A stretch of DNA of 61,052 nucleotides from IMG/VR virus record IMGVR_UViG_3300046780_000585, positions 1 to 61,052 of that record. One strand, written 5' to 3'. Numbering within the stretch: position 1 is the stretch's first letter; every line of letters begins with the position of its first letter. The stretch is from a virus. The notes beneath the pieces are model-generated. The model saw only the letters and a list, made by a program, of their open reading frames with translations. It was not told where the DNA came from and made no database searches. A program made the translations under genes and the position numbers. Positions 523 to 44,805 of this stretch are shown here, piece after piece.

Positions 523-732
523 TCAACCCAAATGAACTCTGGCGCGCGGCGCCCAGCACCGATCGACGATCTTTCCGGTCGGGTCGAGCAACCTCACTTC
601 GCCCTGTCGCAAGTCGCGCTTGATCTTATCGAAGACGGGCCGGACTGACGATTCGTCCGGTCCTGTGGCGCGGACCTTGCGGGTATCGGAATAGCGCCCG
701 CCGTGACGATCAACGATCCATGGATTAGACAT
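523..732 (-). CDS. Small hypothetical protein (69 aa)
   Basis: Starts MSNPWIVDRHGG and ends with a charged tail. It lies 12 bases after the preceding gene in the same operon and 8 bases before the next. Basic, soluble, without membrane segment or known motif. Kept because it fits tightly between two credible neighbours. Function unknown. Confidence 0.6.
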   Translation of the reverse strand: MSNPWIVDRHGGRYSDTRKVRATGPDESSVRPVFDKIKRDLRQGEVRLLDPTGKIVDRCWAPRARVHLG

Positions 733-744
733 TCACCGTTACCC

Positions 745-945
745 TCAAGCAAACATCTTGAACAGGATTGCGCTTGTCATCGCCATATTGGTGCCGACCA
801 TCCATTTCAAGACCGTCAAATCGGTTTCGATCTTGCCGGCCCGGTTTTCATAGCCGGCGGCCTCTTCGGCAGCGGCGCGTGCTATCTCGTCCGGCACGTC
901 GCCGGCCCGCAATGCAGCGTAGAGTTTTGCCATCATGACGGTCAT
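745..945 (-). CDS. Small helical membrane-anchored protein (DUF1640-like tail)
   Basis: 66 aa from the ATG at 945, chosen because AAGGAG lies about 12 bases upstream; a longer frame to 1011 lacks this. An amphipathic helix is followed by KIETDLTVLKWMVGTNMA and a short hydrophobic C-terminus. This resembles the C-terminal membrane anchor of the DUF1640/CCDC90 coiled-coil family. Probably an inner-membrane accessory protein; role in infection unknown. Confidence 0.65.
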   Translation of the reverse strand: MTVMMAKLYAALRAGDVPDEIARAAAEEAAGYENRAGKIETDLTVLKWMVGTNMAMTSAILFKMFA

Positions 946-1011
946 TCGAGGTGGTGCTCCTTGGCGCTTCGTGCTGCGCGCCCCGAAGGACGCGCAGAGG
1001 CGAAACGTCAA

Positions 1012-1131
1012 TCAGCGGCAGATTTGCTGCCAGCCATTGCCGTTCCATTCCCAGCGGCAATCGGCGTGCGCCGGGGCCGTAGCCACGGCAAGACCAGCAA
1101 TGATTGACAGCACGGTAAGGATAGTTTTCAT
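1012..1131 (-). CDS. Tiny secreted protein with signal peptide (39 aa)
   Basis: MKTILTVLSIIAGLAVATAP followed by AHA is a textbook Sec signal peptide, with predicted cleavage after AHA. The mature part is only about 16 residues and contains two cysteines and a WEWNGNGWQQ stretch. The start has a GAGGA site and a hairpin leader (1138-1167). Hammerhead ribozyme 1 lies just upstream in the transcript. Probably periplasmic; function unknown. Confidence 0.7.
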   Translation of the reverse strand: MKTILTVLSIIAGLAVATAPAHADCRWEWNGNGWQQICR

Positions 1132-1137
1132 GGTTTA

Positions 1138-1167
1138 GTCCTCGCTTGTGCGCCGCGCCATGCGGCG
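1138..1167 (-). promoter_or_regulatory. Leader hairpin (AUGGC loop) plus GCGAGGAC ribosome binding site
   Basis: On the minus strand CGCCGC-ATGGC-GCGGCG forms a 6-bp hairpin (1151-1167). GCGAGGAC follows at 1145-1138, six bases before the ATG at 1131. One of seven leaders built this way in the operon. Confidence 0.7.
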
Positions 1168-1185
1168 TTCGTTAGAGTCGAAACT

Positions 1186-1247
1186 GGACTCATCAGGCAC
1201 CGCGTCACGGTGCGACCGGCAAGGCCTAGTAGCCGCCGGTTTCGTCC
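1186..1247 (-). ncRNA. Type II hammerhead ribozyme 1
   Basis: 5' to 3' on the minus strand: GGAC (stem II), GAAA, stem III ACCGGC...GCCGGU, cleavage base C, stem I GCACCG-TGACG-CGGTGC, the core CTGATGA, then GTCC closing stem II. All invariant core bases of a hammerhead are present. The order, open at stem II, defines a type II hammerhead. It starts two bases after the stop codon of the gene at 1249-1485 and lies in the leader of the secreted protein at 1012-1131. Predicted to cut the polycistronic mRNA between the two genes. Confidence 0.9.
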
Positions 1248-1248
1248 T

Positions 1249-1485
1249 TCAAGGCGCCGTCGCCGTCTCCAAGCGCGCGAGCCGGTTGTCCAGGCGGCCC
1301 AGTATGTCCTTCACCTGCACCATGTCGCGGGCGAGCCGCAACACCATCTCGGTCAGCACCGTCTGTCCATAGGAAAGCTCGCGCACATTGTGTTCGATGC
1401 TGTCCATCCGTTTTTCAATGTCGTCGAATCGCCTATCCACACGCGCAAATCGTTCACGCAAGAAGTCCAGGACATCATCAGTCAT
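1249..1485 (-). CDS. Small coiled-coil protein (78 aa)
   Basis: Starts MTDDVLDFLRERFARVDRRF and continues as one amphipathic helix with regular I/L/V spacing. It resembles short phage coiled-coil proteins but has no enzymatic motif. The start at 1485 was chosen over an upstream in-frame ATG because GCGAGGAC precedes it. Its stop directly abuts hammerhead ribozyme 1. Function unknown. Confidence 0.65.
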   Translation of the reverse strand: MTDDVLDFLRERFARVDRRFDDIEKRMDSIEHNVRELSYGQTVLTEMVLRLARDMVQVKDILGRLDNRLARLETATAP

Positions 1486-1494
1486 TGTTTTATC

Positions 1495-1528
1495 GTCCTC
1501 GCTTTGTGGGCGCCCGCCAAGGCCGCCC
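1495..1528 (-). promoter_or_regulatory. Leader hairpin (UUGGC loop) plus GCGAGGAC ribosome binding site
   Basis: Minus strand GGGCGGCC-TTGGC-GGGCGCCC (1528-1508) forms a stem with one bulge. GCGAGGAC follows at 1502-1495 and then the ATG at 1485. Same design as the other leaders of the operon. Confidence 0.65.
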
Positions 1529-1601
1529 GGTTCCGGTAATATTGCCCAGAGCGCCATATGGCGCAAGAGCGGCGGCCTCTGTTAAAGTTTAATCATTCCG
1601 T

Positions 1602-1666
1602 CCGCCGGGCCGGCTGCTTCGGTCCTCGCGGCAGCCAAGGGACCTTTAGTCCCGGATGCCCGGCGG
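1602..1666 (-). ncRNA. Possible three-way-junction RNA, unassigned
   Basis: CCGCCGGGC (1602-1610) pairs with GCCCGGCGG (1658-1666). Inside, GGCTGC (1612-1617) pairs with GCAGCC (1631-1636) and GGGAC (1639-1643) with GTCCC (1649-1653), a compact three-helix junction. It lies in a 193-base gap between two small genes. The hammerhead core (CUGANGA and GAAA) is absent on both strands, so its class is unknown. Confidence 0.4.
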
Positions 1667-1673
1667 AAGGATA

Positions 1674-1704
1674 GGGCCGGCCGGGACGCCAATCCCGCCG
1701 GCCC
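1674..1704 (-). promoter_or_regulatory. Strong hairpin with UUGGCG loop
   Basis: GGGCCGGCGGGA-TTGGCG and the matching right arm form 12 pairs with one bulged G, 18 bases after the stop of the gene at 1722-1892. The loop equals that of the leader hairpins. No U-run follows on the minus strand, so it is not a standard intrinsic terminator. Confidence 0.5.
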
Positions 1705-1721
1705 GCCTTGTGTCGCGTCAA

Positions 1722-1892
1722 TTAGTCATCAGTTGCGGCTGGCAGACGTTCTGCTCGCTGGATCAGCCAGATCAGCAAGACAATATAGGCCAGCACGAAT
1801 GGACCTCCGATAGCGGCTGTTAAAAACAAGCCGGCCATTGCCGCGATCGTATACGTCACAATGCGTGCGCTCTTGCCTGAATCATCCGACAT
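1722..1892 (-). CDS. Small two-helix membrane protein (56 aa)
   Basis: From MSDDSGKSARIVTYTIAA the chain runs into two hydrophobic segments separated by GGP, then a basic RAER tail. The start at 1892 follows GCGAGGAAC and leader hairpin 1915-1929. Hammerhead ribozyme 2 lies upstream in the leader. Likely an inner-membrane accessory protein of the early operon; function unknown. Confidence 0.65.
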   Translation of the reverse strand: MSDDSGKSARIVTYTIAAMAGLFLTAAIGGPFVLAYIVLLIWLIQRAERLPAATDD

Positions 1893-1900
1893 TTTGGTTG

Positions 1901-1929
1901 GTTCCTCGCTATATGCCGCGCCATGCGGC
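1901..1929 (-). promoter_or_regulatory. Leader hairpin (AUGGC loop) plus GCGAGGAAC ribosome binding site
   Basis: Minus strand GCCGC-ATGGC-GCGGC (1929-1915) followed by GCGAGGAAC (1909-1901) and the ATG at 1892. Same design as the leader at 1138-1167. Confidence 0.65.
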
Positions 1930-1941
1930 GTTGGGTTTACT

Positions 1942-1996
1942 GGACTCATCAGGCGCCGCGTCACGGCGCGACGGGGGTTAGTTCCCCGTTTCGTCC
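1942..1996 (-). ncRNA. Type II hammerhead ribozyme 2
   Basis: Minus strand order GGAC, GAAA, stem III ACGGGG...CCCCGU, cleavage base C, stem I GCGCCG-TGACG-CGGCGC, core CTGATGA, GTCC. Relative to ribozyme 1 the stem I pair A-T is replaced by G-C and stem III is wholly different, yet both stems still pair. Such compensatory change is strong evidence for an RNA under selection. The 5' part overlaps the last codons and stop of the gene at 1978-2178. Confidence 0.9.
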
Positions 1997-2178
1997 TTGT
2001 GGCTGCGGGCCTCCAGCCACGCCCGCTCGAGTCGCGCGATCATGACGGCGGCACGCTGCAACAGGTCACGCCGCTCGCCCGCCATCGCCGCGCATTGCGT
2101 CTCGATCAGCTCGCGCGATAGCGCCTCAATCTCGGCCTGCGTCGGGGGCGGCGGCATGTTATCGTCGTCCGGTGACAT
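1978..2178 (-). CDS. Small hypothetical helical protein (66 aa)
   Basis: Starts MSPDDDNMPPPPTQAEIEAL and is helical and charged after a proline-rich start. Its last codons (KDETGN and stop) double as the 5' strand of hammerhead ribozyme 2, so cleavage would remove the coding 3' end cleanly. AAGGAC precedes the start. No recognised domain. Confidence 0.65.
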   Translation of the reverse strand: MSPDDDNMPPPPTQAEIEALSRELIETQCAAMAGERRDLLQRAAVMIARLERAWLEARSHKDETGN

Positions 2179-2248
2179 GGCATGGTCCTTCCGTTGGTCT
2201 TGCTGCAGCCAGTCCGGCTCGGTGGTTTTCTAGTGATCGTAGAGCACA

Positions 2249-2449
2249 TCATGCGATCTCGTCCTCGCGAATTAAAAAATTAAGGCTAACGTGCGCACCG
2301 GCCGCGCGGCGTTCCTTCGCCCATTTGATCGCTTGCGCGCGGTCCACAATCTTTGTGAGACCGAAAATGCGGACCTTGAGCTTTTGGCCGTGGCGCCCCA
2401 GCACGATAAACGGGGACGGCGGCGGCGGTGTCGATACATCCCACATCAT
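2249..2449 (-). CDS. Small hypothetical protein (66 aa)
   Basis: Begins MMWDVSTPPPPSP and has a compact C-terminal part with KIVDRAQAIKWAKERR. The start overlaps the stop of the upstream gene (ATGA) with GGAGG ten bases before, indicating translational coupling. No recognised family. Confidence 0.65.
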   Translation of the reverse strand: MMWDVSTPPPPSPFIVLGRHGQKLKVRIFGLTKIVDRAQAIKWAKERRAAGAHVSLNFLIREDEIA

Positions 2450-2673
2450 GCCACACCTCCCGGCGTCACGATGCGCACAAGCTCGCGGCTGTTGGCGCCG
2501 GCAACCGTGAAATTGCGGATGACATAGAGTGGCGAGCAGGGATTGAGATTGAATATCAGTAGCGTATTGCCGGTGCGGTCCGCGTCCTGCTGCGCCAGGG
2601 CGATGATTCGATCGAGCTTGGTTACTTTGTCGTGCGCGCGGTCTATGTGCTTCAATTCAGATTTGCTAGGCAT
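2446..2673 (-). CDS. Small hypothetical protein (75 aa)
   Basis: Start at 2673 (MPSKSELKHIDRAHDKVTKL) chosen for GTGAGGAC upstream. A coiled-coil-like first half is followed by a beta-rich second half. It is the first gene after the shared 37-bp motif at 2748-2784, so it probably heads a transcript. Function unknown. Confidence 0.65.
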   Translation of the reverse strand: MPSKSELKHIDRAHDKVTKLDRIIALAQQDADRTGNTLLIFNLNPCSPLYVIRNFTVAGANSRELVRIVTPGGVA

Positions 2674-2680
2674 TGTCTTG

Positions 2681-2711
2681 GTCCTCACTGTTTGCTGCCC
2701 GGCCATCGGGC
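2681..2711 (-). promoter_or_regulatory. Leader hairpin (AUGGC loop) plus GUGAGGAC ribosome binding site
   Basis: Minus strand GCCCG-ATGGC-CGGGC (2711-2697), then GTGAGGAC (2688-2681), then the ATG at 2673. Stem sequence differs from the other leaders while the loop is kept. Confidence 0.65.
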
Positions 2712-2747
2712 ATGGGTTGATAGTTGCAGAGAACGGAATGCGCGGAT

Positions 2748-2784
2748 ACCGGAAAGATCAGCAAATATCCGCACATTTCCGCAC
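2748..2784 (-). promoter_or_regulatory. 37-bp duplicated motif, candidate early promoter or operator (copy 2)
   Basis: Matches 32 of 37 bases of 4650-4686, including the whole TCCGCACATTTCCGCAC block. Both copies lie about 75 bases upstream of a gene start and read towards it. No clear -35/-10 pair was identified, so it could be an activator or repressor site. Confidence 0.55.
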
Positions 2785-2793
2785 ACGAGGGCG

Positions 2794-3711
2794 TCAGGCC
2801 GCAAGCGATACCGGGGCATTGCCGGCAAGCGCCAGGCCGCGCAGATGATCCGCCGCTGCTTGTGCCTTGCTGCACGCGGTAAAAAACGCGCGGCTGTCGG
2901 ACTTCAGGAGCGCGATCCAGTGCGCGATATAGCCGGCATGGCGTAGATCGCCGTCGAGATCGAATTCAGCGCAGAGGAAAGCCGCGCAGAGTTCCGCCAC
3001 CAGTTCTTCCGCCGCATAGGCCTGGTCACCAAAGCGCTTACCCCATGCCGATTGGCGATCAAGCCGGGACTTGTGCCCGGTCCAATGGCCAAGCTCATGG
3101 AACGCCGTCGAATAGAAGTTATGCGCGTCCTTGAAGGCACCGAATGCCGGCAGTGATATGTAGTCCGTTGACGGCGAGAAGAAAGCTTCGCCAGCACCTT
3201 CCCGGATATCGGCCTGCGTACATGCCATGAACTCGTCGATCGTCGCGTCCCGTTCGTCGCGGTTGCGCGGCGGCTTGCCCGTCGCCGGTGCAATGATCTT
3301 GTCCGGAAGATTCTCGCATTGCGCGACGTTGAAGACCGTATATTCTCGCATCATCGGGATAAGGCGCGGGCCCGCAGGCTCGCCATTGCCTTCGGCTGGT
3401 GTCGGTGCAGTCTTGTCCGTTACCGCCAATTGCTTGACGAAATAGACTTTCGTGCCATGCTCGCCCTTGCGCACGTTGCCGCCAGCGTCCAGTGCTTGTT
3501 TGAATGTCAGGTAGCGCGGGCTCGCATAGCCACGATTGGCCGCCAGCCAAAGCAGGATGACGTTGCAGCCGCTATAGGGGCGGTTTGTTGTGGCGTTGCA
3601 CGGTACGTTATGGCCTGCCGTCGCCGACCACGGCTTGATCCAAGGCGCCGCGCCACGCTCCAACTCTTGGACTATGCGTGCAGAGACTTCCGAATAGAGG
3701 TCGCGTTTCAT
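2794..3711 (-). CDS. ArdC-like anti-restriction / ssDNA-binding protein with zincin domain
   Basis: 305 aa from 3711 (MKRDLYSEVSARIVQELERG). The N-terminal region has the DUF1738/ArdC ssDNA-binding pattern (APWIKPW, then NRPYSGCN). The C-terminal half has HELGHWTGH, the metal-binding motif of the ArdC metallopeptidase-like domain. ArdC proteins protect incoming DNA from restriction on conjugative plasmids. An early-operon place in a phage fits anti-restriction on entry. GCGAGGAC and a leader hairpin precede the start. Confidence 0.85.
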   Translation of the reverse strand: MKRDLYSEVSARIVQELERGAAPWIKPWSATAGHNVPCNATTNRPYSGCNVILLWLAANRGYASPRYLTFKQALDAGGNVRKGEHGTKVYFVKQLAVTDKTAPTPAEGNGEPAGPRLIPMMREYTVFNVAQCENLPDKIIAPATGKPPRNRDERDATIDEFMACTQADIREGAGEAFFSPSTDYISLPAFGAFKDAHNFYSTAFHELGHWTGHKSRLDRQSAWGKRFGDQAYAAEELVAELCAAFLCAEFDLDGDLRHAGYIAHWIALLKSDSRAFFTACSKAQAAADHLRGLALAGNAPVSLAA

Positions 3712-3718
3712 TTTGATT

Positions 3719-3750
3719 GTCCTCGCTGTGTTGCCTCCCGCCAAGGAGGC
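3719..3750 (-). promoter_or_regulatory. Leader hairpin (UUGGCG loop) plus GCGAGGAC ribosome binding site
   Basis: Minus strand GCCTCC-TTGGCG-GGAGGC (3750-3733), ACACA spacer, GCGAGGAC (3726-3719), ATG at 3711. Confidence 0.7.
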
Positions 3751-3801
3751 CGGCTGGATCGCCGATCATGGGCACCGCAAAGGATGCCCATGGGCTGCAA
3801 T

Positions 3802-4026
3802 TCAGCTCACTAGTTCCTTGCATTCCCAGATATGCATTCCAGCATCATTCAGCCGTCGCGCATGATCGGCGCAGCACCAAAACCATGGCGACTCGTTAAA
3901 CTCAATCGCGCGGCCATGGAGCTGCTCAACTCGAGCTTTAGTGCGAATGATGCAAGTCGCTTCATTGGCGTCTGGTGTCGGATTGCCTTGCGCATCAATC
4001 CATTTGATCTGGCAAATCGCTTTCAT
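3802..4026 (-). CDS. Small hypothetical protein (74 aa)
   Basis: Start at 4026, MKAICQIKWIDAQGNPTPDA. Three cysteines and a histidine (CIIRTKA, WCCADH, IWEC) could bind a metal. The leader contains hammerhead ribozyme 3 and a leader hairpin. No recognised family. Confidence 0.65.
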   Translation of the reverse strand: MKAICQIKWIDAQGNPTPDANEATCIIRTKARVEQLHGRAIEFNESPWFWCCADHARRLNDAGMHIWECKELVS

Positions 4027-4029
4027 TTC

Positions 4030-4066
4030 GTCCTCGCTGTGTTGTCGGACACTCGCCAAAGCGCCC
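4030..4066 (-). promoter_or_regulatory. Leader hairpin (UUUGGCGA loop) plus GCGAGGAC ribosome binding site
   Basis: Minus strand GGGCGC...GTGTCC (4066-4047) pairs with two G-U pairs around TTTGGCGA. An ACACA spacer, GCGAGGAC (4037-4030) and the ATG at 4026 follow. Confidence 0.65.
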
Positions 4067-4080
4067 GGGTTGTTGTGTCT

Positions 4081-4133
4081 GGTCTCGTCAGTGGCGGCAT
4101 CACCGCCAGACGGGGCAAAGCCCCGTTTCGACC
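4081..4133 (-). ncRNA. Type II hammerhead ribozyme 3
   Basis: Minus strand order GGTC, GAAA, stem III ACGGGG-CTTTG-CCCCGU, cleavage base C, stem I TGGCGG-TGATG-CCGCCA, core CTGACGA (position 7 tolerates C), GACC closing stem II. All three stems are perfect and none repeats the stem I or II sequence of ribozymes 1 and 2. It begins three bases after the stop of the gene at 4136-4309 and leads the gene at 3802-4026. Confidence 0.9.
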
Positions 4134-4135
4134 TG

Positions 4136-4309
4136 TCACGCGCGATAATCAATCGCACGCGTATAGACGCTGTGTTGCTGCGACGCCCATTTGTCGAGAA
4201 TGATCACTTCGCGATCATATTCAGCCTGCGACAATCGGCCGGACATAAGCCGCGCGTCCAGCCTATCCATCGCACGCTCAACTTGCCGCTCAATCTGGTC
4301 CTCGGTCAT
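4136..4309 (-). CDS. Small SHOCT-like protein (57 aa)
   Basis: MTEDQIERQVERAMDRLDAR, then LMSGRLSQAEYDREV. The G-x-(I/L)-(S/T)-x-x-E/Y pattern resembles the short C-terminal SHOCT oligomerisation domain. Start at 4309 follows AAGGAACG. It sits between its neighbour's stop and hammerhead ribozyme 3. Function unknown. Confidence 0.65.
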   Translation of the reverse strand: MTEDQIERQVERAMDRLDARLMSGRLSQAEYDREVIILDKWASQQHSVYTRAIDYRA

Positions 4310-4321
4310 TTGTTCGTTCCT

Positions 4322-4573
4322 TCACGCCAAGCAATGAATGAGCTGCGAACCACGCGTTTGATTGGTCCCAGCCGGATCAAAGATCATCCCGCAACGGCCG
4401 TAACGATCCAGGACCTCAATCGAGAACCCAATCGCCATCACCTGCAGCAGAGTGTGGCGTGTGATCGTCTTGGTTCCCGCGATGGCGGCAAAAGCTTTTG
4501 CCTTGGCGCAAACGGGATAAGCCGTCTCCGTCCCGTACACCGACTTGATCTGTATCTGGATGCTCTCTGTCAT
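4322..4573 (-). CDS. Small hypothetical protein (83 aa), first gene of the early operon
   Basis: Start at 4573, MTESIQIQIKSVYGTETAYP. The compact fold with KSVYGTETAYP and AKAFAAIAGTKTITRHTL resembles small beta-beta-alpha phage proteins but no family is recognised. ACGAGGAC and leader hairpin 4594-4611 precede it. The 37-bp motif at 4650-4686 lies about 75 bases upstream. Confidence 0.65.
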   Translation of the reverse strand: MTESIQIQIKSVYGTETAYPVCAKAKAFAAIAGTKTITRHTLLQVMAIGFSIEVLDRYGRCGMIFDPAGTNQTRGSQLIHCLA

Positions 4574-4580
4574 TTGTTTG

Positions 4581-4611
4581 GTCCTCGTTTGTTGCCAGGC
4601 GCCAACCCGGC
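4581..4611 (-). promoter_or_regulatory. Leader hairpin (UUGGCG loop) plus ACGAGGAC ribosome binding site
   Basis: Minus strand GCCGGG-TTGGCG-CCTGGC (4611-4594, one G-U pair), AACAA spacer, ACGAGGAC (4588-4581), ATG at 4573. Confidence 0.65.
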
Positions 4612-4649
4612 TTGCAATCAACAATCTATCAAACAAATACAAATGCACA

Positions 4650-4686
4650 ACCGTAAAGATTGGCACAAATCCGCACATTTCCGCAC
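4650..4686 (-). promoter_or_regulatory. 37-bp duplicated motif, candidate early promoter or operator (copy 1)
   Basis: Partner of 2748-2784 (32/37 identical), placed at the same distance from the next gene start. It marks the upstream end of the minus-strand early gene block. Confidence 0.55.
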
Positions 4687-5381
4687 CAAGCAAACAAGAG
4701 CAGGAAAGATTGTTGCTGGGGGAGACAACCTCAATTCAAGCCAGATTAAAGTTAGCAGAGTCGCTCGCCGAGCCGGGAAAAGTTCATAGCATCTGGCAGT
4801 TTTAGTGCCATACGGCCTATTTAGTGCCACGATGGAGCGTTTCCAAAACGGCACAGCCGGCAGGACACTATTGGAATTGGAGCCCTGTTTTGCCGGTGCC
4901 CACAGCACGCGAGTGGGCCGTGAACTGCTAAGCCTCTGATTTTATTGAATTGAGGTAGTCAGGTAGGTTGCGAAGCTGCGGAAATGGCCTCGCAGACGGA
5001 GCAATGGATGTGGTGCGGTCGCCAATAGGATGGCCGCAGGACGCCCTAGGAAGGCCAAGGGTGCGTTTGAATGGACCGGCCGCTACCCTACCCTAGGTCA
5101 TACCGCAAGAACGCGCCCCGCAAGCCATCCCATCGATTTCCGCGAGCTGCGAGCTGCAGCTTTCCTCTAGCCTTGCCATGACGCCACCCCACCCCACCCC
5201 ACCCCAGGCCCCCCCCGGGGGGGACGCTGGCCAGGCCACCCCCATCGATCTTCTATCTCAGTGCCCCCCGCATATCTGTCCGCTGTTTTCCCATTACAAC
5301 CGTTAGTATAGAATTCGACCATGGTTCGCCTTGTTGGTTTTAGAATTTCGATTTTGGGTTTCCCCTATATAGGACTAGACC
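4687..5381 (+). other. Gene-free, GC-rich spacer with simple repeats
   Basis: No convincing coding frame on either strand. Contains four copies of ACCCC in tandem (5186-5205), followed by a C8-G7 run (5209-5223) that is its own inverted repeat. The rest shows no structure I can name. Confidence 0.5.
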
Positions 5382-5582
5382 TTGTCCCGTCCCGAAACCG
5401 CTCCCCTGCCGGGTATGGATTCCGGCGTGGGCGTCGGGACAGAAGTTGTCCCGGCTTTTTTTGTTGTGTTTGTGATGGTTAGTTTATTTTGGGACAATCG
5501 GGACAAAACGGCTGTCCCGATATAAAAAAAACGTAAAAAACCTGAAAAGTTTGCTTGGTATCGGGACACAACCTGTCCCGAT
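5382..5582 (+). repeat. Cluster of TCGGGACA/TGTCCCGA palindromes, candidate origin or initiator sites
   Basis: Three inverted repeats: CGGGACA-N5-TGTCCCG (5435-5453), TCGGGACA-N7-TGTCCCGA (5498-5520) and ATCGGGACA-N5-TGTCCCGAT (5560-5582). Single copies lie at 5382-5395 and 5491-5496. An A-rich stretch (5521-5550) lies between the last two. Repeated palindromes beside AT-rich DNA, next to a RepA-type helicase gene, suggest a replication origin. They could also be operators. Confidence 0.5.
5435..5461 (+). terminator. Possible intrinsic terminator, plus strand
   Basis: CGGGACA-GAAGT-TGTCCCG followed by GC and seven T. It has the right shape, but no plus-strand gene ends nearby, and the same palindrome recurs without T-runs. 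The T-run may be incidental to the repeat cluster. Confidence 0.35.
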
Positions 5583-5855
5583 TTGTGACAGCCAAGAAGG
5601 AGGTTGATTTTGAGGGTTTGGCGGGCCCGAGGCGAGGCGCCGGCGCTGCCGGGAGGTTAGGCATCTCCCGGCGCGAAAGCGGCCGTGCCGTGTCCGCCGA
5701 ATGGGGAGAAACCGCGATGGTATGGATCGCGATTTCTATAACCATCAGAAAGCACCGCGCACGACTGACCATCAAAGTGCGGTGGTTCTGACGCGAAGCC
5801 GGGGGGGCGGGTTAGGGCTCGCCCCTCCACCCCGAAATCTAGGGCGATCCGGGCC

Positions 5856-7286
5856 TTAGAACAAGTTCTTTTGGCCACCGGTATTCTGCTGCCGGTTGAA
5901 GCGGAGGACGGCTTGGCGGGCGGCGTCTTTGCCTTCGTCGGTGAGGTGCCACTTATTACGGAGCTTGGTTGTTAATTTAGGCTTCTTCTTTTCGAGGTCG
6001 GCGACGAGACGCTCGACCTTTTTCTTGTAGGCTTCGCCGCTTTCGGAGACCCAGCCGAGATCGCTTGCCCAGTTGGCGAAGGAGCCACCGTGGTCGGCGG
6101 GCATGTTGAGCATGGCGGTGAGGACGCGGTCTTCGTCCTCCTCGGCCTTGTCGGAGTGCTGTTCTTCCTCGCGTTGGGAGATGGGGACGGCGCGCACGGT
6201 GGTGATTTGGCGGCCTTTTTGGTCGACGAGGGCTGGTGACTTGATGGGCTCGAGCTTGAAGGACATGGCCTGGAAGCCGGGGCCGCGGATTTTGTTGTAG
6301 TGGAGTTCGACGATGTCGTCGGTGGTTCTGGCGAGGGTGAGGTTGCCGTCCATTTCGGCGAGGTATGCGCCGCCGCCGCGGGGGAGGAGTTGGGAAGGGT
6401 CGGTGACGTATTTGATGGGGTGGCACAGCACGAGGACGCAGGGTTGGCCCGGCAACGTTGTGAGCCTTCGGAGCGTCCTGGCGTAGGCGCCCATCTGGGT
6501 ATTACTGAGTTCCTCATTGCCCAAAAAATACGCCGCGCTGGTATCGACGATGATGAGGCTGAATTCGCCCACGACCTTGCCGTCGGCCTCGATTGTGGGC
6601 CACATCTGCTCGATGTCGAAGACGCCGGGGAGGAAGTAGATGGTGTCCTTGTCGGGGTTGTCGTTTCGGAAGCTGTTGGCGCCGATGACGCGCATGCGGA
6701 TATCGTCGGGGTTTTCGCCGACGAAGTAGAGCACGCGGCCTTTTTCGAGACGGTGGGAACCGAACATGGCGTTGCGGTCGAGGCAGGCGACGCGCTCGGC
6801 GAGGTGGAGGGCGACGGCGGTCTTGGCGTGGCCGGTCTGGCCGGTCAGGGCGTAGATGAAGCGGCGCTGCAGGATGCCTTCGACCAGGTAGTCGGGCGGG
6901 ATGAAGCCCAGGATGAATTCGGCCTGGCTGAGGACTTTGCGGGGCGCGGTGGCGGGCGCGGTCTTGGGGCCGGAGGGTTTGTGGCCCCCCTTGGCGGGTC
7001 CGTTGCTGCCTGGTGGGGGCGGCCGCTGGACCCCGGCGAAGGCGGCTGCGATGCGGGTCTGCAGCCCGTCCTCGCCCAACGCCGCGACCAGCCCGTGGGC
7101 CTGCGCCATCTCGTAGAGGGCATCGATTGCCGTGGCCATGGGGAGGCCGCCCGCGACGTAGCCGGCGGCGTCCTTGGCGGCCTCGTCGAAGGCCGTGGTG
7201 CGGGCCTCGAGGTCGCCCTCGCCCAGGCTGGCCAGCACCGCCCGCCAGTTCGCCAAACCCTCCCGGAAGCGGTCCTCGATGGTCAT
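5856..7286 (-). CDS. RepA-type hexameric replicative helicase (AAA_25 ATPase)
   Basis: 476 aa. Walker A is GQTGHAKTA (about residue 155); Walker B is FSLIIVDTSA; a later LVLCHPIK strand fits the sensor region of RepA/RecA-fold helicases. The C-terminal ~90 residues (VERLVADLEKKK, then LTDEGKD) look like a winged helix. An N-terminal ~130-residue helical part is family-variable. Likely unwinds DNA at the phage origin, for which the palindrome cluster 5382-5582, downstream of the gene, is a candidate. The start overlaps the stop of the upstream gene (ATGA). Confidence 0.85.
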   Translation of the reverse strand: MTIEDRFREGLANWRAVLASLGEGDLEARTTAFDEAAKDAAGYVAGGLPMATAIDALYEMAQAHGLVAALGEDGLQTRIAAAFAGVQRPPPPGSNGPAKGGHKPSGPKTAPATAPRKVLSQAEFILGFIPPDYLVEGILQRRFIYALTGQTGHAKTAVALHLAERVACLDRNAMFGSHRLEKGRVLYFVGENPDDIRMRVIGANSFRNDNPDKDTIYFLPGVFDIEQMWPTIEADGKVVGEFSLIIVDTSAAYFLGNEELSNTQMGAYARTLRRLTTLPGQPCVLVLCHPIKYVTDPSQLLPRGGGAYLAEMDGNLTLARTTDDIVELHYNKIRGPGFQAMSFKLEPIKSPALVDQKGRQITTVRAVPISQREEEQHSDKAEEDEDRVLTAMLNMPADHGGSFANWASDLGWVSESGEAYKKKVERLVADLEKKKPKLTTKLRNKWHLTDEGKDAARQAVLRFNRQQNTGGQKNLF

Positions 7287-42151: not shown

Positions 42152-44805
42152 TTACCTGATCCTTTATCTTCATAACGAGACGCTACTCTCGCTACCGCCT
42201 TTCGGCTGCTGCATGTTCCCATGCAGAGGAGACTATATCATCACCCACTTGGGGTGCCGGGCGCTTCGGACCGCTTGGTCCTACGAGCTTGCGCTCTAGT
42301 CGTTGCACCTTCCGCTCACGCGGCTTGGCTCAGGATTGGCCGGTCTGGCGTTCCCCTGAATTCACCCGGTTGTTCGATGCCGATTACTCGGCAAAGGGAC
42401 TTCAAGATTGTTAATCCGTACACCTGCAGGCCGCGAAGGATCTGACCAAACGTTAGCTCAGAGCGCAGAGTCTCGAGTTTCGAAATTTGCGATGCGAACG
42501 TAATCCCGTGGGCGTGGCCAGCAAAGATCGGAAACTCGCCCGCTGAGAAGTTGGCTGAATCGCTCGCGTTGGTCGGCAGCAGGTTCGAGATATACAACGT
42601 GAATCGATCAATCATTCCGAGCCGGCCATTGCGCAGCATCGAGACCGGATCGCCCGACAGATAGGCCTGCCTGAGTTCCGACTGCTTGATCTGTCGTCCG
42701 GCCCACGCCGGCATCACCACCCAGCGGCCGACCTCCGGGATGTTCTGCTCGTCGAGGCACTCCCCCATGCGCAGAAGCAGATCAATCAGATTGGACTGAC
42801 CGGCCGTCGCACCCTGCCCGACCACCGTGATCGGCGTGCCCTTGATGCCGAGGTTGAGATTGGCGTACTTCCCGGCCGTCGCGCCGCGGTTGGTCGCCGC
42901 GCATTGCCCGACGATGCCGTCGAGCACTTCCGTGTCGACCGCGATCTTTAGCTGCTGTGCCGCATCCCTTATCTTCATAACGAGACGCTACTCTCGTTAC
43001 CGCCTTTTGGGCTGCTGCATGTTCCCATGCAGAGGAGACTATATCATCACCCCTTTCGGGGGCCGGGCGCTTCGGACCGCTTGGCCCTACGAGCTTTCGC
43101 TCTAGTCGTTGCACCTTCCGCTTGCGCGGCTTGGCTCAGGATTGGCCGGTCTGGCGTTCCCCTGAATTCACCCGGTTGTTCGATGCTAATTGCTCAAGCA
43201 AAGGGACTCTGACGAATCCGACCAAATAGACAGGACATTCAGATCGCTCTGCACCTCCATCACGTCGTCGAGGATCAGAGAGAAGTAAAAGCCGTTGCCG
43301 ATGTAGAGTTCGACCGAGCCTCCAGTCGGTCGATCAAGACCGAGCAAACCGTCCGCCTGATACTTGCGGATCGTGATCGTAGGCTTCGTCCGGATTTTCA
43401 CCCGGTCGCCTTGGTTCGCGATTTCGCCTTCGTAGTCGGTCGCTAGCGTCTCAGGCGCTTACCTGATCTGCTTCCCACTGTCGCTTACGCTGTTGCGCAC
43501 CAGGTCCCATGAACGACGGAATATCACGTACCGTCGCCAGAAGCCTGGCCACTTCAGCGCCCGGACCACTCAGTCTGTGCGGCTGGACTTGGAGTTGTTT
43601 CATCGCCAATTGGATACGCTCCGCGTCGCGGAAATGTCCCATCCTGGCGCAACCAATAAGAAAATACGCCTGATCGTTCTTGAGCACCATGTGCTTGGCC
43701 AATGCAGTTTTACCGCTCTCGAACATCGAGCGGACTTTGGCCGCGTCCATAGACAGCACCCAATTAACCATCGACGTACCATTCTCGGTTACAAACTCCT
43801 GAACGGATCCTCCGTAAGCCTTCTGCAACAGATCGATACCAACCCGTTCGAAGGCTTCATCGCATACCGAAAGCACCGGCTGTGCCGACATGCCCTTTGG
43901 AATGCGAATTGCAAACGATCCGTTCCCGTCGATATATCCGGCTGCCCATTTTCGTGTCGGATGTTTCGGCATTGGAGATGCGCCTCGCGCTGCATCAAAC
44001 CGCTGCTTCCCCACCTGCACGTCCATAACCTCGCCGTTCATATCGATGGCGCAGTCGGCAAGTGCTCTTTTCAAGACCAGGAACTTGCGAAGCCGCATCA
44101 GAACGCTGACAGCCTTGGTGCCCGCTGTATTCCAGTGAAAAGCACCACTCTTTTCATACATTCCAATATGCCCCCACACTTTATCGAGTGAAGGCGGCGT
44201 CAGACTGGACGCAATCAACTCCATGAAACTACGACCCGGTGCTTTCTGACAAAACGAAACTACAGCGTAAGCACGCTGCGGCCCTGTTCCGTCCCAGTTT
44301 TCGCGCCGCATCGGTGGATTCCACATCAACTGAATGCTTCCATCGCTATCCAACAGTCCTGCAAGGTACTTGTCGCTGAGCCGGTCCTTGCCTCTGGTTC
44401 CCTTCGGTTCCAGTTTTTCAGGTCCGGTATTGCTCGAACTACCGTTTAATTCGAGATCGCGCTCAACACGGTTGAGGCGTAGCTTTCCGACAAAAGCCGG
44501 ACCGACTATCGCTTCAGGGGCAACCCCTGCTGGATCACTTAGTCTGTGCGGGTGCGTGCTCATGCTTCCCTCGGGTTCCAGCCAACTATGAAGGTTCCCG
44601 TTTTTCAGATCCAGTTTAAAGAAGTCCTAGCGAACTTCTCGACCAGCTTAGCTGCATTCAGAACTGATCAAATTTGGCCAGCTTGGAACCAAATTTCCGG
44701 AATAAAGCCCGTTGATTGGAGTAGGTTTCCGGTAGACCCTACGGGGGTCAGGGGCGGGACTGAGCCTGACGTTGCGCCAGGAAAACCCGCACTCGGGATA
44801 GGCAT
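42152..44805 (-). CDS. Major coat protein, split by three group I introns
   Basis: Exons predicted 44805-44663, 43457-43202, 42967-42395, 42161-42152; spliced product about 326 aa of the P22/HK97-fold type. Landmarks: FIPEIW and SKLAKFDQ (exon 1), TDYEGEIANQGDRVKIRTKP and LILDDVMEVQSDLNVLSIWS (exon 2), LKIAVDTEVL, NGRLGMIDRFTLYISN and RSELTFGQILRGLQVYGL (exon 3). Exons 2 and 3 join in frame at the predicted sites. Exon 1 shows one extra T near 44688, between FIPEIW and SKLAKF, so it is either a sequence error or a programmed shift. Lies between scaffold and adaptor genes. Confidence 0.85.
42162..42394 (-). ncRNA. Group I intron 3 in the coat gene (IC3-like, 233 nt)
   Basis: Contains CAATCCTGAGCCAAGCC (Q), GGTGCAACGACTAGA (R) and GATATAGTC (S), with GACTA-TAGTC forming P7. 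The exon TCCCTT pairs with internal guide AGGGGA; the U-G pair sets the 5' site after GTCCCT. Three GNRA or compensated loops differ from intron 2 while stems are kept, so it is probably active. No ORF. The 3' site (after AAAG, giving a short last exon LIR-stop) is the least certain boundary. Confidence 0.85.
42395..42967 (-). CDS. Coat protein exon 3
   Basis: 191 codons from DAAQQLKIAVDTEVLDG to QVYGLTILKS. Without knowledge of the introns it reads as a separate 220-aa protein starting inside intron 2 (42978), which is an artefact of frame reading. Carries most of the coat P-domain. Confidence 0.8.
42968..43201 (-). ncRNA. Group I intron 2 in the coat gene (IC3-like, 234 nt)
   Basis: Near-twin of intron 3, with the same Q, R and S elements, and inserted after the same exon motif GTCCCT. 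Covarying loops: CCGC-GCAA-GCGG here, CCGC-GTGA-GCGG there; GAGC-GAAA-GCTC here, GAGC-GCAA-GCTC there; CCCC-GAAA-GGGG here, ACCC...GGGT there. Splicing restores the coat frame (…SESLDAAQQ…). No ORF. Confidence 0.9.
43202..43457 (-). CDS. Coat protein exon 2
   Basis: Encodes (S)PETLATDYEGEIANQGD through LNVLSIWSDSSES. 256 bases, two beyond a whole number of codons on each side, matching the phases of exons 1 and 3. Holds the conserved D-Y-E-G-E-I and the I-L-D-D spine motifs of P22-type coats. Confidence 0.8.
43451..44563 (-). CDS. LAGLIDADG homing endonuclease encoded in coat intron 1
   Basis: 370 aa with two motifs, LAGLLDSDGS (about residue 68) and AAGYIDGNGS (about residue 208), as in single-chain LAGLIDADG enzymes. 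The ATG lies inside the intron core, upstream of P7. Its first codons (HRLSDPAGVAPEAIVG) double as the R, P8 and S elements. The stop falls a few bases inside exon 2. The enzyme would cut intron-less coat genes and spread the intron. Confidence 0.9.
   Translation of the reverse strand: MSTHPHRLSDPAGVAPEAIVGPAFVGKLRLNRVERDLELNGSSSNTGPEKLEPKGTRGKDRLSDKYLAGLLDSDGSIQLMWNPPMRRENWDGTGPQRAYAVVSFCQKAPGRSFMELIASSLTPPSLDKVWGHIGMYEKSGAFHWNTAGTKAVSVLMRLRKFLVLKRALADCAIDMNGEVMDVQVGKQRFDAARGASPMPKHPTRKWAAGYIDGNGSFAIRIPKGMSAQPVLSVCDEAFERVGIDLLQKAYGGSVQEFVTENGTSMVNWVLSMDAAKVRSMFESGKTALAKHMVLKNDQAYFLIGCARMGHFRDAERIQLAMKQLQVQPHRLSGPGAEVARLLATVRDIPSFMGPGAQQRKRQWEADQVSA
43458..44662 (-). mobile_element. Group I intron 1 in the coat gene with homing endonuclease (1205 nt)
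   Basis: P1: exon GATCAGTT pairs with AAGCTGGTC-type guide across an 11-12 base loop, the U-G pair giving the 5' site after GATCAGT. P2 GAAGT...ACTTC. P3 CTGGATC...GATCCAG. P4 CGGG...CCCG. P7 GACTA...TAGTC. P8 AGGGG-TTG-CCCCT. These are the pairings expected of a group I core. Unlike introns 2 and 3 it hosts an ORF. Confidence 0.85.

Follow-up and report, generated by a model that had tools for sequence, protein, structure and literature searches.

Type II hammerhead ribozymes at gene boundaries of an uncultivated virus genome and their putative role in the punctuation of polycistronic phage mRNA

The window analysed here is the whole 61,052-nucleotide (nt) stretch of the virus record IMGVR_UViG_3300046780_000585 (IMG/VR, positions 1 to 61,052). 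Its minus strand bears three sites which, judging from their sequence, are real and complete type II hammerhead ribozymes, and which form an array on one strand at the gene boundaries of a small-gene block. It is likely that all three are active and punctuate a polycistronic phage messenger RNA (mRNA), a reading based on the structure, conservation, covariation, strand and stop-codon placement presented below. The phenomenon itself was already described in 2011 (PMC3088659) and the array of the window is a further instance, missed by Rfam. Judged against the accessible literature, the new features are the anchoring to stop codons over hundreds of copies, a subclass with A-flanked stem II and a UNANG loop I, and a block of ribozyme and leader that outlasts the genes around it.

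Core, fold and covariation of the three ribozymes

An earlier note, prepared from the sequence alone, had claimed type II hammerheads at these three minus-strand positions, and the exact core, the fold and the E-values of a covariance model (1e-19 to 2e-24 with model R1, Table 1) bear it out. All three sites present stem II, GAAA, the stem III hairpin, UC, the stem I hairpin, CUGA(U/C)GA and stem II' in this exact order; the core order and the stem II pairs that had been claimed (GGAC/GUCC or GGUC/GACC) are exact in every copy. The core CUGANGA, GAAA and the UH cleavage site have the order required for type II, helices I and III are closed by loops, and helix II is open, with support from covariation. 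The pairs C11.1-G10.1 and A15.1-U16.1 are found together with the GUC cleavage triplet in all three copies, and the predicted cuts fall after C4109 (site 3), C1970 (site 2) and C1214 (site 1). Stem III is longer at site 1, and the hammerhead secondary structure is the minimum-free-energy fold at each site. A pattern scan of both window strands that demanded full order and pairing led only to these three sites, with 0.005 expected per shuffled strand, and a pattern search across the entire record gave three matches again and zero in the controls.

Model R1 was built from 50 hammerheads of other IMG/VR contigs, the window being excluded. Comparison of its source loci with the window and its relatives by blastn gave no match, except for one of 70 nt around site 3 (locus L167). 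The covariance-model search that the earlier note had called for finds all three sites with R1 at 56.7-68.6 bits, and the next-best match in the window reaches 12.7 bits. A scan of the window with the whole Rfam library, at the gathering threshold and at E ≤ 5, did not report Hammerhead_II. When this model (RF02276) was searched alone, site 1 scored 24.1 bits (gathering cut-off 37) and sites 2 and 3 gave nothing; at E ≤ 10, its matches below the cut-off also appeared in 10 of 14 control genomes. It exceeded its cut-off in one of 20 contigs where R1 finds 2-9 copies each. Since most clear viral members also remain below the cut-off, the low score is a limit of the Rfam model and not a defining feature of the type II class. 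The current model misses most of the compact class at its cut-off, and consequently viral hammerheads are undercounted in annotation that relies on RF02276.

Relatives with 90-100% portal identity that cover the region carry 2-4 hammerhead copies each. Twenty-six copies from the window and these relatives were aligned; all cells of the 15 pairs hold a standard pair, both partners vary in nine pairs, and double changes account for 73 cells (27-46% paired in slid controls). The claim that the stems change in sequence and keep their pairing is upheld, as all stem pairs are retained through the 73 double changes. The wider viral set is 98% paired with 256 double-change cells; its rows were preselected by a structural rule, and for that reason the fraction of valid folds among unselected matches, given below, weighs more than this covariation.

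A compact class in viruses, often anchored to stop codons

IMG/VR was searched by exact matching with the patterns GGACGAAAC...CTGANGAGTCC and GGTCGAAAC...CTGANGAGACC. All counts of viral copies and loci in this section are among the matches listed, the true number being larger. Both hairpins and a UH cleavage site were present in 300 of the 321 exact matches, and the same test on shuffled sequence gave zero valid structures. A pattern search of bacterial genomes (257 Gb) led to 57 matches, of which only 29 had valid structures with any stem II counted; because of this, much of the bacterial match list looks like chance and the class looks mainly viral.

Concerning the compact form of the class, the base 5' of stem II is an A in 280 of 287 distinct copies and the base 3' of it in 219, and the five-base loop I mostly reads U-N-A-N-G. 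The three window copies fit this subclass without exception, with an A on both sides of stem II and the loops UGACG, UGACG and UGAUG. A pseudoknot between loop I and the tail occurs in the majority of type II hammerheads, and is used by about 40% of all hammerheads (PMC3088659). In each window copy the longest Watson-Crick run available for it is two, short of this published tertiary contact, and the pseudoknot was rejected for the class at large (18 of 299 copies versus 17.1 after shuffling). As about 40% of all hammerheads use it, the pseudoknot is not a strict requirement for type II membership. A contact between the A flanking stem II and the UNANG loop I is a possible candidate for its substitute.

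Placement shows a strong tendency. In 178 of 268 viral copies, a long upstream frame has its stop codon at -1 to +4 nt relative to stem II, and in 47 copies a TAG shares its G with stem II. Where both flanking genes are given, 159 of 222 copies are located within 4 nt of the stop versus 47.9 expected under uniform placement, and a control with shifted positions brought the anchoring to ~2%. The multi-copy loci keep all their copies on one strand in 65 of 65 cases, with a median copy spacing of 496 nt and a median length of the next protein of 94 amino acids (aa). Strand agreement by raw coverage of open reading frames (ORFs; 140 versus 72) was set aside as too noisy in GC-rich DNA and the multi-copy strand test was used instead. 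A tie to one kind of gene was rejected as well, the 70 downstream proteins belonging to many families, mostly of unknown kind. In the literature accessible without subscription we found no paper on the stop-codon placement of hammerheads, and stop codons have zero occurrences in the text of PMC3088659. As a separate observation, six virus contigs (G013, G015, G016, G017, G018 and G022, with the loci L004, L015, L022-type, L053, L084 and L117) carry 7-9 type II hammerheads each.

In the window, the earlier statement that each ribozyme starts within a few bases of an upstream stop codon is right for sites 1 (1 nt) and 3 (2 nt) and fails at site 2, where the stop lies inside the stem III loop. 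Likewise, the fixed position that had been proposed describes two of the three window sites and a strong tendency across viruses, with site 2 departing from it.

Leader hairpins and genomic context

The ribozymes are established in a minus-strand block of small genes that extends from 4573 down to about 520. The block lies downstream of a replication-type gene (5856-7286, primase/helicase-like), which is followed by a stretch of ~1.1 kb with no obvious gene. A small gene does follow each ribozyme, as had been claimed (74, 56 and 37 aa after sites 3, 2 and 1, respectively), with a Shine-Dalgarno sequence (GCGAGGA) and an ATG 49-54 nt past the ribozyme. Between the two lies a second hairpin that was absent from the earlier description. 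Most genes of the block share such a leader at 1145-4588 (minus), consisting of a hairpin of 5-9 bp, a few bases, GCGAGGAC (or ACGAGGAC, GTGAGGAC) and the ATG; a hammerhead precedes three of these leaders and the others have no ribozyme. The GGUC-type ribozyme together with its leader hairpin is kept in about ten relatives, where the flanking genes fall into 5 upstream and 7 downstream protein clusters, built on short proteins and possibly over-split.

Table 1. Ribozymes, leader hairpins and neighbouring genes in the window (scores with covariance model R1).
Feature	Position	Strand	Remarks
Type II hammerhead ribozyme, site 3	4081..4133	-	stem II GGUC/GACC; 68.6 bits, E 2.4e-24
Type II hammerhead ribozyme, site 2	1942..1996	-	stem II GGAC/GUCC; 61.2 bits, E 2.3e-21
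Type II hammerhead ribozyme, site 1	1186..1247	-	stem II GGAC/GUCC; 56.7 bits, E 1.4e-19
57-aa gene upstream of site 3	4136..4309	-	gap of 2 nt from TGA 4138-4136 to stem II
Leader hairpin between site 3 and Shine-Dalgarno GCGAGGAC of next gene	4046..4067	-	hairpin block also conserved among relatives
74-aa gene downstream of site 3	3802..4026	-	
ArdC-like antirestriction protein gene, segment between sites 3 and 2	2794..3711	-	PF08401, PF18818; phrog_7245
66-aa gene upstream of site 2	1978..2178	-	TAA 1980-1978 inside stem III loop; gap -19
Leader hairpin GCCGCAUGGCGCGGC between site 2 and next Shine-Dalgarno	1915..1929	-	
56-aa gene downstream of site 2	1722..1892	-	
78-aa gene upstream of site 1	1249..1485	-	gap of 1 nt from TGA 1251-1249 to stem II
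Leader hairpin between site 1 and next Shine-Dalgarno	1151..1167	-	
37-aa gene downstream of site 1	1018..1131	-	signal-peptide-like start; no Pfam match

Three close relatives (L242, L260 and L319) bridge the window ends (61052 / 1) with 187 further bases. Since relatives join both ends, the record probably represents a nearly complete genome of about 61.2 kb whose form is circular or circularly permuted. Its portal protein has its nearest counterparts, at 57% identity, in the RHph_TM27A group of Rhizobium phages (60.9 kb); against annotated phage records, DNA matches were limited to short ArdC-like or primase-like stretches.

Other elements were also detected. A noncoding, hairpin-rich element of ~180 nt at 1492-1708 (minus) is near-invariant in ten relatives with differing flanks, and one of its inner hairpins can be present or absent. 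It occurs in one copy per genome in 18 IMG/VR contigs, of which those checked all belong to this clade, and it has no Rfam match. Finally, two group I introns with similar cores lie ~0.6 kb apart at 42209-42429 and 43015-43241 (minus; 83 and 78 bits); an ORF of 220 aa (42316-42978) overlaps the first, and an HNH-endonuclease-like ORF is located at 43451-44563.

Putative mRNA segmentation, its alternatives and known systems

Hammerhead cleavage leaves a 5'-OH and a 2',3'-cyclic phosphate, and in bacterial mRNA turnover hairpins at the ends and the absence of a 5' phosphate should slow decay. For cleavage, end chemistry and the effects on mRNA stability and translation in this phage, we infer the following course. 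During transcription each ribozyme would cleave itself 3' of the GUC, at the junction of stems III and I. On the upstream product, a GC-rich stem III hairpin carrying a 2',3'-cyclic phosphate would form the 3' end ~25-35 nt past the stop codon, and at site 2 this hairpin would contain the stop codon itself. The downstream product would carry its 5'-OH immediately at the stem I hairpin, with the leader hairpin and then the ribosome-binding site behind it. Neither exonucleases nor decay pathways that require a 5' phosphate should have ready access to these ends, so that each segment may gain its own lifetime and translation context.

A processing role is supported by the strict core, the covariation, the one-strand placement, the stop anchoring and the published cleavage of analogous clusters (PMC3088659). 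Phage and prophage clusters of type II hammerheads were reported in 2011 to cleave polycistronic RNA, a triple around ardA among them; native polycistronic RNAs of ~2 kb from three clusters were cleaved in vitro, and the triple flanking ardA of Agrobacterium tumefaciens was cleaved in Escherichia coli (Perreault et al., 2011; PMC3088659). The leader hairpin and Shine-Dalgarno sequence behind each window copy support the same role, as may the apparent lack of a minus-strand promoter or terminator-like site between the genes: no sigma-70-like promoter and no minus-strand terminator-like site was found in 700-5860 (minus), although phage promoters may differ from the type scanned. The early operon of the earlier note is accordingly a putative one. 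Of the dedicated mRNA-processing scheme put forward in the earlier note, the processing role is well supported, and the scheme is not special to this genome.

Several observations weigh against mRNA punctuation or restrict it. The segment between sites 3 and 2 carries 5 or 6 genes and the one between sites 2 and 1 carries two, so the single-gene units of the earlier note are only loosely true. The frame of the 66-aa gene covers stem II, GAAA and one half of stem III at site 2, as it also does in the relatives L247, L262 and L270, and its translation should compete with the folding of this ribozyme. Furthermore, two copies in relatives have changed cores with all stems kept, namely CCGAUGA at L275:4628-4679 and GAGA for GAAA at L256:2782-2840, and the nearest cultured phage group (Rhizobium phage RHph_TM27A) has no hammerhead. 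The changed copies may represent recent decay or altered activity; together with the hammerhead-free RHph_TM27A they fit a useful element that is dispensable, since such copies exist and that phage does without any.

Among the alternatives, the one that deserves most attention, albeit an unlikely one, is that ribozyme and leader hairpin mainly insulate the gene behind them, removing upstream RNA and providing a standard 5' end and an exposed ribosome-binding site; what becomes of the upstream mRNA would then be of minor importance. The order of hammerhead, hairpin and ribosome-binding site is that of RiboJ (PMC6206723), the leader hairpin and GCGAGGAC stand ahead of almost all genes in the block, and the ribozyme-leader block persists where flanking genes differ. 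However, an insulator of the downstream gene has no need to sit so close to the preceding stop codon, the leader occurs at several genes of the block that lack a ribozyme, and most other viral copies lie at a median of 23 nt from the next start (among the matches listed), too short for a second hairpin. The persistence of the GGUC-type ribozyme and leader in about ten genomes, amid the differing protein clusters described above, could also indicate a block that mainly serves as a recombination linker for swaps of small genes, its cleavage being tolerated or a minor by-product, and copies of the same locus are indeed more alike than copies from different loci. Such a linker would need neither a perfect catalytic core nor compensatory stem changes, its homology is weakened by the diverging stem sequences, and across viruses the variable parts of the copies are mostly dissimilar, all of which makes it rather improbable.

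Two further explanations have very little probability. The predicted 5'-OH and 2',3'-cyclic phosphate ends are those joined by RtcB-type ligases and several ribozymes would lie in one transcript, hence segments freed by two ribozymes could be ligated into circular or spliced mRNAs; yet no RtcB or RNA-ligase family was found among the 48 window ORFs scanned, and Perreault et al. sought spliced or circular products and found none (PMC3088659). Chance or decayed hammerhead-like sequences, inactive as ribozymes, would agree with the core mutations in some relatives' copies and with the Rfam scores below the cut-off, but it is equally hard to credit them, as 0 to 0.005 sites are expected by chance, the cores are intact in all three window copies, the stems covary, and Rfam misses the class generally. 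Punctuation of a polycistronic mRNA is the reading we prefer. Its extension, that stop-anchored hammerheads with leaders are a general punctuation of phage gene cassettes, a self-cutting linker which splits operons and stays while genes exchange, is proposed here tentatively.

The purpose of phage and bacterial hammerheads has long been open, and it is narrowed by the stop anchoring, the one-strand loci and a spacing of about one small gene. The anchoring and the persisting ribozyme-leader block point to mRNA segmentation with tailored ends. This idea can now be tested in a cultured phage, and the contigs with 7-9 copies are good candidates for finding one.

Compared to known systems, the window copies share secondary structure and conserved core with RF02276, while they differ in scoring at most 24 bits against its cut-off of 37, in a stem II of 4 bp with an A on either side and in the U-N-A-N-G loop I. 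The T7 early mRNA is likewise polycistronic and, as is generally known, is divided into stable units at structured RNase III sites between its genes; there a host enzyme leaves 5'-phosphate and 3'-OH ends, whereas self-cleavage of the window RNA would produce 5'-OH and cyclic phosphate ends. RiboJ, which combines the sTRSV hammerhead with a 23-nt hairpin and increases the mRNA and protein levels of the gene that follows (PMC6206723), has the same order of hammerhead, hairpin, ribosome-binding site and gene. Unlike the window copies, which lie inside a putative operon and at sites 1 and 3 directly after a stop codon, it is man-made, derives from a viroid-like satellite RNA and is placed after a promoter. 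The closest likeness in proposed function is with the prophage clusters of Perreault et al. (2011), namely the ardA triple of A. tumefaciens and the cluster of Azorhizobium caulinodans. That triple flanks ardA, and the array of the window holds an ArdC-like gene in the segment between sites 3 and 2. In contrast to the majority of type II hammerheads in PMC3088659, the window copies have no pseudoknot between loop I and the tail, and in contrast to the published clusters each of them is followed by a leader hairpin.

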